In this document: positions 57,444 to 61,567 of the stretch, piece by piece | Layout of the letters: every line of letters starts with the position of its first letter | Numbering within the stretch: position 1 is the first letter of the stretch | From: Panicum virgatum | Taxonomy: Eukaryota > Streptophyta > Magnoliopsida > Poales > Poaceae | Reading direction: 5' to 3' | NCBI RefSeq assembly: GCF_016808335.1 | Contig: NC_053148.1 | Coordinates: 67,001 to 131,000, forward strand | Length of the DNA stretch: 64,000 nucleotides | The notes under the pieces: model-generated | The model's input: the letters and a program-made list of their open reading frames with translations, nothing else | Told to the model about the DNA's origin: nothing | Database searches by the model: none | Translations under genes and position numbers: made by a program

Positions 57444-58968
57444 ATGAATTGTATACCCATGCACTTGCAGAGGTCGCAGCAGCAGCAGGAGCAGGACGGC
57501 GGCTCATCGACGACATGCACACCACCACCACCGGTACCATCATCTGCAGGCAGCAAGCGACCAATAAGGACGACGACGTCGAAGCCGTCGCTGCCAGCGG
57601 CGCTTCGTGGGAGGTACGAGCTGCACAGCCTGAGAGGGCAGGGCGAGTTCGCGGAGGTGTGGGAGGTAGGGTTGAAAACGGACGGAAATATTCCCGTTCC
57701 GACTTGTTTCGTTTTTTATTTTTGTCCGTTCGTTTCCATATTTGTGGGATCCCGTTTTCGTATTTACGGAAGTAGAAATGAGATTTCTCCGTCCGTTTTT
57801 GAGGAATCCCGTTTTTACATGGAATTGACCCGTATTTATTCTGTTCTTCATCCCATTTTTAATCTACATAAGATATGTCTAAAAATTGATATGTTCAAAA
57901 ACATACCAATCACTAAGTATGCATGTTAACATGTTAACACATGACATACTAGTGAATATTGGACTAATAACTTCGTAGGTGTATATTATTTTGTGACTTT
58001 GTTAATGTATACTCGAGAATATTTGATCGCGTTATTCTTTCCGGCTCAACGTCCGTATTGGTTCGTTTCTGTACTTCCGCGTAACTCGATTCCGTTTTCG
58101 TACCCGTATTTTTTGAACCCAATCCCATTTCTGCCAAAAAATATAGAAACGAAAGTAGAAATGAGGTTGTTCCGTCCGTTTCCGTCGCTAGTGGGAGGCC
58201 AGGCATCTCCGCACGGGCCACTGGGTGGCCATCAAGATCATAGCTCCTCACAGCCAGAGCTGCTTTGAGGTTTTCGTCATGCGCCTGCTCAGCCTCCGGC
58301 AGCCGCAGCACCCCCACATCGTCCGCTTCTACGAGGCCGCCCGCTCCAGCGACCACACCTACATCGTCATGGAGCTCGCCGAGGGCGGCCAGCTCCACGA
58401 CCACGTCGCCGTCCGGGAGAGGCTGCCGGAGGCCCAGGCCCGCGCGCTCTTCCAGCAGCTGGTCGCCGGCGTCGCCTACTGCCACCGCAGCATGGTCGTC
58501 CACCGCGACCTCAAGATGGAGAACGTCCTGCTCGACTCCCGGGGCCACCTCAAGATCGCCGACTTCGGCTTCAGCAATCTGTGGGCCCCAGGGAGGCTGC
58601 AGGCGGAGAGCTGCGGGAACCCGCAGTACGCGGTGCCGGAGCTGCTGGATGGCCGCCCCTACGAGGGCCCCGAGGTCGACGTGTGGAGCTGCGGCGTCAT
58701 CCTTTACGCCATGTTCTGCGGCCGCTTGCCCTTCGACGCCGGCACCGACGACATCTCCGACCTGCGCAGGAACGTCAGGCGCGGAGACTTCCGCCGCCTG
58801 CCGTCCTGGGTCTCCGACGACGCCCGGGACCTCATCTCCAGCATGCTCATCGTCCGCCCGCAGAAGCGAGCCACCATCACCGAGGTCAGGGCGCACCGAT
58901 GGCTTGAGCCGGACATGCCGCCGTACCTGGCCCTGCTGCCGACCACTAGTCCCGACGCCACTCTGTGA
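57444..58968 (+). CDS. SnRK1-like serine/threonine kinase, glycine-rich-loop exon split by a MITE
   Basis: The reading is exon 57444-57665, intron 57666-58191 (GT-AG), exon 58192-58968, giving 332 aa. The glutamine-rich N-terminus leads to RYELHSLRGQGEFAEVWE, the glycine-rich loop. After the splice come VAIK (lysine about residue 89), EVFVMRLLS (helix C glutamate), HRDLKMENVLL (aspartate about 180), DFGFSN (about 198) and GNPQYAVPELL, with VPE where most kinases have APE. DVWSCGVILYAMFCGRLPFD and the C-terminal MPPYLALLP resemble SnRK1 catalytic subunits, which sense energy status. The protein stops at 58966, while UBA-like sequence continues downstream. Whether it is expressed and active is open. 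Confidence 0.7.
57667..58190. mobile_element. hAT-type MITE (524 bp) inside the kinase gene
   Basis: It starts TAGGGTTGAAAACGGACGGA and ends TCCGTCCGTTTCCGTCGCTA; the ends are imperfect inverted repeats. The 8-bp target duplication GTGGGAGG is exact at 57659-57666 and 58191-58198, the hAT signature. No transposase is present. The interior is AT-rich with repeated TTTCCGTT/CCGTTTTCGT-type motifs. The element interrupts the codons between VWE and ARHLRTGHWVAIK. Confidence 0.92.
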
Positions 58969-59263
58969 CGGCCAAGACCAGCCGCGGTCGACGCTGCCAC
59001 CGTGGAGCTGCTAGTCACGCGCCACGGGGTTCGAGAGGGCCAGCCTGCTCCACCACCTGGACCACGAGGCGGCGGTCGCGTACCAGCTGGTCCTCAACGA
59101 GCAGCACGACGCCGCGACCCGTTACTACCAGCAGCTCGCCATGCCGCCGCCGCCGCAGCGGGCGCTGGGAGGAGGAGGCTTGGACGGCGCTGGGGCAGCT
59201 GGGCGTATGCATCCTCATCAGCTTCTACCACAGCCGCCGCCGCCGCCGCCGCTGCCTGATGAT
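58969..59263 (+). pseudogene. Decayed UBA-like tail of the SnRK1-like kinase
   Basis: Directly after the TGA at 58966 the same frame continues RPRPAAVDAATVELLVTRHG, and one base shift within GGGG (59027-59030) gives FERASLLHHLDHEAAVAYQL and VLNEQHDAATRYYQQL. This resembles the ubiquitin-associated segment that follows the kinase domain in SnRK1 (a V-D-E…V-V-x-M-G-F…A-V-A-Y-x-L-L-L pattern). It ends in a proline-rich stretch and TAG at 59261. Thus one nonsense change and one frameshift separate it from the kinase. An alternative intron was looked for but no phase-compatible GT-AG pair was found. Confidence 0.55.
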
Positions 59264-59469
59264 TAGTTCGGATGCATGCTGGCATCGAAGCATCTATAGT
59301 CCAGCTAATAATATATATAAATTCCATCATCACTCATCATTGACAACAATATAATGCAAGTTTTCTTGAGTACATTTATCCGATCATTTCTTAATTTGCC
59401 ATCGAAGATTGAGCTGCAGCCCTTGTGCATGAGGTCCGGCACGAAGTTCTCTTGCTTGCTAGGGGTGAT

Positions 59470-60362: not shown

Positions 60363-61567
60363 AATCAGTTTGGGTTCATGCCTAGAAGGTCGACCATAGA
60401 GGCGATTTTACTAATACGACAATTGATGGAGAGATATAGGGAGTAAAAGAAGGACTTGCACATGGTCTTTATTAACCTCGAGAAGGCGTATGACAAAGTA
60501 CCAAGAAATGTCATGTGGTGGGCCTTGGAGAAGCACAAAGTCCCAACTAAGTACATTTCCCTCATCAAGGATATGTACAAGAATGCAATGACGTTTGTTC
60601 GGACATGTGGTGGCGACACCACTGACTTTCCTATTAACATAGGCCTACATCAGGGGTCGGCATTGAGCCCTTATTTATTTGCTTTGGTGATGGATAAGGT
60701 CACAAGGGAATACAAGGTGATATCCCTTGGTGTATGCTCTTTGCTGATGATGTGGTGCTGGTGGACGAGAGTAGAGCAGGGGTAAATAGGAAGTTAAAGC
60801 TGTGGAGACGCACATTAGAGTCAAAAGGGTTCAGACTTAGTAGGACCAAGACCGAGTATATGATGTGCGATTTCAGCGCATCTAGGCATGAGGGTGGTGA
60901 TGTTAGTCTCGATGGGCAAGTGGTGGCCCATAAGGACACTTTTCGGTATTTAAGTTCGATGCTACAAAAGGATGGCGGCATTGATGAAGATGTTAGGCAT
61001 AGAATCTCAGCTAGCTGGTTGAAATGTCATCAAACTTCTGGTGTTCTCTATGACAGGAGGGTGCCACAAAAGCTATTAGATAAGTTCTATAGGATAGCGA
61101 TCCGCCCGGTGATGTTATACGGTGCTGAATGTTGGCCTACAAAAAGACGACATGTCCAGCAACTGAGTGTAGCAGAGATGCGGATGTTACGGTGATTTTG
61201 CGGGCACACAAGGAGGGATAGAGTCCGGAACGAAGCTATTCGGGAAAGGGTAGGGGTGGCATCAATTGAGGAGAAGCTTACCCAACATCAATTAAGATGG
61301 TTTGGACATGTCCAACGGAGGCCTCCGGAGGCGCTGGTACGTAGTGAGGTGCTAAAGCATGTTGACAAGGTAAAGAGGGGTAGAGGTAGACCTAAACTGA
61401 CTTGGGACGAGTCGGTTAAGAGAGACCTTAAAGATTGGGATATCTCTGAGGAGTTAGCTTTGGATAGGAGCGCTTGGAGACTAGCTATCAACGTGCCTGA
61501 ACCATAACATTTATGTCTTTTGGGTTTTATCTCTAGTCTACCCCAACTCGCTTGGGACAAAAGGCTA

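Follow-up and report, generated by a model that had tools for sequence, protein, structure and literature searches.

A hAT MITE in a switchgrass SnRK1-like kinase exon as a putative intron

The window, the whole 64-kb stretch of switchgrass DNA that we analysed, carries on its forward strand an interrupted SnRK1-like kinase gene of chromosome 4N, whose public protein is PVAP13_4NG001900 (P0001). We could reproduce P0001 letter for letter by beginning at the ATG at 57459, removing 57666-58191 and 58965-59037 and ending with the stop codon at 59264-59266. The public gene model already contains the intron 57666-58191, with borders identical to those proposed in the preliminary description of this DNA and with a Trp-Glu pair duplicated across the junction. 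The first coding part occupies 57459-57665, with a further in-frame ATG at 57444, the remainder of the kinase domain runs without interruption from 58192 to 58965, up to the TGA at 58966, and a decaying C-terminal tail of the model follows at 59038-59266; compared with Panicum miliaceum, the frame changes near 59027 and again near 59184. The original statement that the frame stays open from 57444 to the TGA at 58966 once 57666-58191 is removed, at the cost of six added bases (TGG GAG), stands, with the amendment that the annotated start is at 57459. The second "intron" of the model, 73 nt at 58965-59037, skips the TGA (58966-58968) together with a frame change, has a very weak donor (U1 duplex of only -1.4 kcal/mol) and is probably an annotation device. 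For this reason the public gene model as a whole may be homology-driven or predicted and is not readable as transcript evidence. The switchgrass annotation drew on RNA-seq, Iso-Seq and protein homology, as outlined in excerpts of PMC7886653, and the 90% cluster of P0001, of which it is the sole member in that database, holds no second spliced sequence.

The predicted spliced product has a complete kinase domain (Pfam Pkinase 2-263 of 263), and its membership of the SnRK1/AMPK/SNF1 group is borne out by its best solved-structure matches, which are AMPK alpha followed by SNF1 and MARK, and by its SnRK1-like relatives. At conserved kinase columns the window copy is changed at 6 of 125, compared with 2 to 5 of 119-125 in the six relatives counted. 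In the activation loop (about 58590-58640) the window gene has Glu where ordinary SnRK1 has its threonine (LKTSCG, P0025). Glu also stands in this column in the C4 homeologue and in P. miliaceum and Dichanthelium, and other members of the divergent clade have Arg, Lys, Ala or Gly; control by phosphorylation at this position may have been lost or mimicked. The insertion had been placed in the glycine-rich loop; it falls instead in the predicted strand beta-2, just past the conserved valine of the loop. In a structure model from 16 sequences (overall pLDDT 64.9) the strand at residues 67-74 includes the duplication, with block means of 63 for residues 61-70 and 90 for residues 71-80, and the confidence of this predicted position is mixed. 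Downstream of the gene, an open frame at 60447-60785 resembles by eye a non-LTR retrotransposon reverse transcriptase.

The interruption itself is an element of 524 bp (57667-58190, forward strand) lying between direct copies of GTGGGAGG at 57659-57666, the left target-site duplication, and 58191-58198, the right one; these coordinates, and the exactness of the 8-bp duplication, agree fully with what had been described. The element starts with TAGGG (TAGGGTTGAAAACGG) and terminates in CGCTA, and its terminal inverted repeats, at 57667-57687 on the forward strand and 58170-58190 on the reverse, match at 17 of 21 positions between the ends and at just 7 of 11 across the outermost 11. The window contains a single case of an exact 8-bp repeat abutting an inverted repeat of 17/21 or better at a spacing of 100-3000 bases, 20 dinucleotide shuffles contained none, and the repeat and duplication structure of the insert is not due to chance. 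The exact (8/8) target-site duplication and the short terminal inverted repeats are those of the hAT superfamily. AAACGG hexamers number six in the 524 bp with both strands counted (four and two in the outer 200 bp), compared with a mean of 0.95 in the shuffled element, where six were reached in 0 of 2000 trials. For maize Ac/Ds, excerpts of PMC3260210 give an 11-bp terminal repeat C/TAGGGATGAAA at each end, with up to two differences tolerated, and subterminal AAACGG hexamers. Counted by eye, the 5' end of the window element (TAGGGTTGAAA) matches this repeat at 10/11 and its 3' end (TAGCGACGGAA) at 8/11, and the 3' end of the family consensus (TAGCGATGAAA) at 10/11. Because the window 3' end reaches only 8/11, the element was not assigned to Ds or to the maize Ac/Ds family proper, although the hexamers are those of that family, and the label "Ac/Ds-like" is used; judged by its sequence, the element is an Ac/Ds-like hAT MITE. 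GTGGGAGG occurs once more at 57607-57614, with TA directly after it, 52 bp upstream of the duplication, and since the C4 homeologue has this additional copy too (185403), it is ancestral and unrelated to the insertion.

From 111 first-look candidates, 40 copies were scored in the switchgrass genome, namely the window copy and 39 relatives at 90-94% identity, with three partial, and the family is short (524 bp), multicopy, homogeneous and without transposase, as a MITE family is defined. In 25 of the 39, with ends picked by searching nearby positions, the element runs TA...TA and is flanked by an 8-bp duplication with no more than one mismatch; the consensus ends are TTTTCATCGCTA. Against the family consensus, the window copy shows 26 differing positions out of 524 and, at its 3' end, a 10-bp gap; the 25 others differ by 3.9% on average. 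The 3' ends of the copies (L009-L047) fall into two size classes 10 bp apart, and the window copy has the short length with a divergent 3' end. Three copies (L037, L038 and L039; C12, 60.30-60.37 Mb) share the same identity and ends, with a TAGGGATGAAA start, are spaced 30 and 38 kb apart and match positions 1-484 only; they are probably one element multiplied through local duplication. No coding-exon insertion was recognised among the 39 other copies in a weak test that covered 200-bp flanks for open frames, with 10 of the 39 translated and five frames compared with Pfam.

The preliminary description had called for an uninterrupted orthologous exon, and the homeologue supplies it: at C4:185282-186598 there is a single open frame of 444 aa from its ATG, continuous over the insertion site and with no intron there. 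The locus codes for P0122 (PVAP13_4KG013605), with a 100% match over residues 17-455, and on that ground we take C4 as chromosome 4K; at the first guessed homeologue position, 200 kb of C4 did not contain the kinase. When the window flanks are joined and set against C4, the octamer differs at its first base, C4 having CTGGGAGG in place of GTGGGAGG, and since both window copies have G this difference is most simply older than the insertion. Without a G at that base, the acceptor AG would be impossible. Among the 15 other rows of alignment A1, one has no residues at the site; of the remaining 14, V-W-E-A-R stands in 13 and V-K-I-A in the last, which is an ordinary SnRK1; four of five further relatives have residues there, and all four, including a second P. 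miliaceum protein, read V-W-E-A-R. The extra Trp-Glu is absent from all 14 of these rows and from those four, and is found in 0 of 17 relatives within the clade, which were compared as proteins, so that introns are possible there, and some of which come from environmental or raw-read assemblies. These comparisons show that the insertion is derived and entered a formerly uninterrupted exon.

Over 257 codons the window copy and C4 give a dS of 0.105, a dN of 0.042 and an omega of 0.40 (bootstrap 0.20-0.76), values that average both branches, before and after the insertion; every indel between the two copies keeps the frame. The kinase domain is free of stops and frameshifts in both homeologues. 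Compared by eye with P0002, the C4 tail is also frame-changed, and the tail of the gene appears to be eroding in both copies. P0003, the protein of a 2278-bp ENA contig, joins an N-terminus like that of the C4 homeologue to the C-terminus of a different SNF1-type kinase and looks like an assembly chimera, its second half being fungal by eye.

With the MITE retained, the first in-frame stop lies at 57927-57929, giving a 156-aa product from the ATG at 57459, and a second sequence carrying the insertion in this unspliced frame came to light in P0227, the protein of an independent 945-bp ENA contig. It matches the window frame end to end (144 of 156 residues identical) through the same junction and covers the 5' junction of the insertion, not its 3' end; the donor is kept in it, because a valine codon must begin with GT. 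The insertion, being shared with P0227, is probably not private to the reference haplotype. Two of 69 residues differ in the exon part and 10 of 87 in the MITE part (Fisher p 0.067), a contrast that is only suggestive as to selection in the MITE-bearing copy after insertion. To account for the 10 residues that differ in the MITE part (window 57667-57926), no fewer than 10 changes in 261 nt are required, and each of the 10 can be explained by a single transition, which fits the expectation for a methylated element. Of the 43 other matches in the same search, we read six, which have the MITE frame behind unrelated starts; this suggests plant DNA in environmental assemblies.

We examined the borders of the insert as splice sites. 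As the preliminary description had stated, a GT at 57666-57667 and an AG at 58190-58191 can be read in the sequence, each part duplication and part element: the last G of the left duplication serves as intron base +1 and the preceding AG as exon bases -2 and -1, and the first G of the right duplication completes the AG. The putative 526-nt intron GAG/GTAGGG ... GTCGCTAG/TGG (57666-58191) matches the public gene model and leaves Trp-Glu duplicated, and an alternative 532-nt intron (57666-58197), whose closing AG lies in the right duplication, would recover the ancestral codons without any change; both acceptors keep the frame, and alternative use alters two residues only. The donor GAG/GTAGGG has a U1 duplex of -9.8 kcal/mol, the strongest of 59 GTs in 57444-58299, and this value is reached by 0.43% of the 3266 GTs on the same strand of the window. 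The runner-up value is -5.7 kcal/mol, shared by two weaker upstream donors: the one at 57657 lies 9 nt ahead of 57666 and keeps the frame, and the one at 57614, formed by the additional GTGGGAGG copy and the TA after it, lies 52 nt ahead and shifts the frame. The acceptor GTTGTTCCGTCCGTTTCCGTCGCTAG (58191), for which the 3' terminal inverted repeat doubles as pyrimidine tract, has the highest pyrimidine fraction among 21 AGs in 57700-58259, and the second AG (58196-58197) ranks sixth of the 21 by this measure. No yTnAy branch-point motif is present in 58120-58185, and a weak TnA-type candidate at 58164, 26 nt from the acceptor, is the sole one in 58130-58185. The insert thus has the GT-AG borders and competent signals of an intron, with a weak branch point. 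Its GC content is 36.6%, compared with 67.1% for the exon. Plant splicing exploits a GC contrast between intron and exon. The titles in the reference list of PMC2586383 agree with such a use.

The geometry of the borders deserves less weight than it had been given. A GT-AG insert that leaves six extra nucleotides follows automatically from an 8-bp duplication of the form G......G around an element of the form T...A, and a genome search for copies with such ends, as had been suggested, found the same geometry in 5 of the 25 other copies. Hence neither the GT/AG geometry nor the kept frame was accepted as special evidence. The initial characterisation of the locus as a clean case of intron birth is sound as regards the MITE, the formerly uninterrupted exon, the strong signals and the matching gene model, and overstated as regards this geometry.

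In the origin that we propose, a non-autonomous Ac/Ds-like hAT element would have entered the N-subgenome copy of the kinase gene, in an exon until then uninterrupted, at a target that by chance gave a duplication starting with G and ending in AGG; the simplest timing is later than the separation of the K and N lineages. The TAGGG start of the element, joined to the AG/G of the duplication, would form the strong donor GAG/GTAGGG, and the pyrimidine-rich CGCTA end, with the first G of the right duplication, would form the acceptor CTAG. Upon transcription, the U-rich 526-nt insert would most likely be removed as an intron, to give a kinase with one added Trp-Glu pair in strand beta-2, and a minor form that restores the ancestral protein could arise via the AG 6 nt downstream. 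We consider it reasonably probable that the MITE is used as the intron 57666-58191 in kinase transcripts, where we infer transcription, splicing, its efficiency and the function of the protein from the DNA. The larger proposition, a naturally established hAT-MITE intron in a land plant, in which the insertion persists in diverged sequences, is efficiently spliced at its hybrid junctions and yields through two acceptors both the ancestral kinase and a longer beta-2 form, is put forward tentatively, as something that may well prove not to hold in full.

The same insertion could have been a plain disruption, in which the MITE hit a working or already dying kinase copy and the intron is only a software join of homologous pieces, and we regard this as a rather unlikely but serious alternative. 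In its favour are the TGA at 58966, the frame changes near 59027 and 59184, the implausible second intron of the same model and a read-through stop after 156 aa. Gene models with transposons in coding sequence are, according to excerpts of PMC4256211, mostly mis-annotations, especially of pseudogenes. However, the C4 tail is eroded too, so that the damage to the tail is not specific to the MITE-bearing copy, and neither homeologue has a stop or a frameshift in its kinase domain. A homology-driven join would also not gain from the extra Trp-Glu, as the AG at 58197 gives the sequence of the relatives exactly, unless splice-site scoring disfavoured that AG, and the donor and acceptor of the modelled intron rank best in the region.

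How cleanly the MITE would be spliced is a related question, since partial or alternative splicing, as with Ds1 in maize exons, would bring in several sites, including 58197, 57657 and 57614, and much retention. This possibility refines the preferred explanation and shares some of its probability, and we hold it to be doubtful as the main outcome. The second AG only 6 nt downstream and the two donors at -5.7 kcal/mol are consistent with it, as is the finding, in excerpts of PMC5432752, that exonic Ds1 supplies three donors and two acceptors; against it, the donor at 57666 is ahead of all others by about 4 kcal/mol, and the TAG at 58191 comes first and has a better pyrimidine tract than the GAG at 58197. 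Finally, an older intron at this site, later invaded or replaced by the MITE, is very improbable: the C4 homeologue has no intron in its 444-aa frame, which led us to reject an old intron for the K lineage, the MITE and its two 8-bp duplications explain every base of the insert, and we found no supporting point for it.

The origin of new introns has been a question for a long time, and at this switchgrass locus the element, both copies of the duplication, the empty homeologous exon and a second insertion-bearing sequence are all still legible. Transposon insertion is the only intron-gain model with in vivo support in plants according to excerpts of PMC4256211, on five grass genomes, and in the same parts of that 2014 survey no proposed gain fixed in a species is tied to a transposon structure. 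Among the entries listed in our literature search, no paper deals with this locus or with a hAT-MITE intron that became fixed naturally in a grass. If the proposed reading is true, the locus would be a natural repeat of what maize mutants showed decades ago, and Ac-type ends (TAGGG...CTA) would be pre-adapted, such that an 8-bp duplication of the form G...AGG gives an in-frame intron at once. It would also provide a countable rule, in which T...A ends and an 8-bp G......G duplication make a GT-AG, +6-nt, in-frame insert, and exonic copies of this kind can be listed. Splicing of Ds from maize exons is already established, and a naturally established grass case would be new.

The closest known systems are those of maize. 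The Ds1 element in Adh1-Fm335, described by Dennis in 1988, is said to be an exonic element spliced from the mRNA, Wessler reportedly described Ds and Ds1 spliced out of maize exons in 1991, and a 1987 paper in Science is said to have dealt with a Ds spliced from an exon of a waxy allele. Common to these cases and ours is an Ac/Ds-type hAT element in an exon, and in maize it is spliced out of the mRNA. The maize examples are mutant alleles with RNA evidence, whereas the switchgrass allele is that of a reference genome, known from DNA, with junctions split between element and duplication, a comparison made without the exact maize junctions. In one precisely processed mutant allele, the element and one copy of the duplication are reportedly removed and the wild-type message restored, at low efficiency. 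This resembles what the switchgrass acceptor at 58197 would do, but the preferred predicted switchgrass product retains six extra bases. Excerpts of PMC4256211 cite this allele as one case of precise processing. Introners (Gozashti 2022), in excerpts of PMC9860276, are derived from DNA transposons with duplications and inverted repeats, take their splice sites wholly or partly from the duplication, and in some cases add codons, as in Aureococcus (12 bp) among the algal cases; those excerpts report none in land plants. Unlike Introners, which are families that create many introns, the switchgrass MITE had no other coding-exon copy recognised among 39 in the weak test described above. In the AGGT-type model of transposon introns, as given in excerpts of PMC3443670, a duplicated target yields splice sites on both sides. 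There both sites lie within the duplicated AGGT, whereas each of the switchgrass sites is part duplication and part element.
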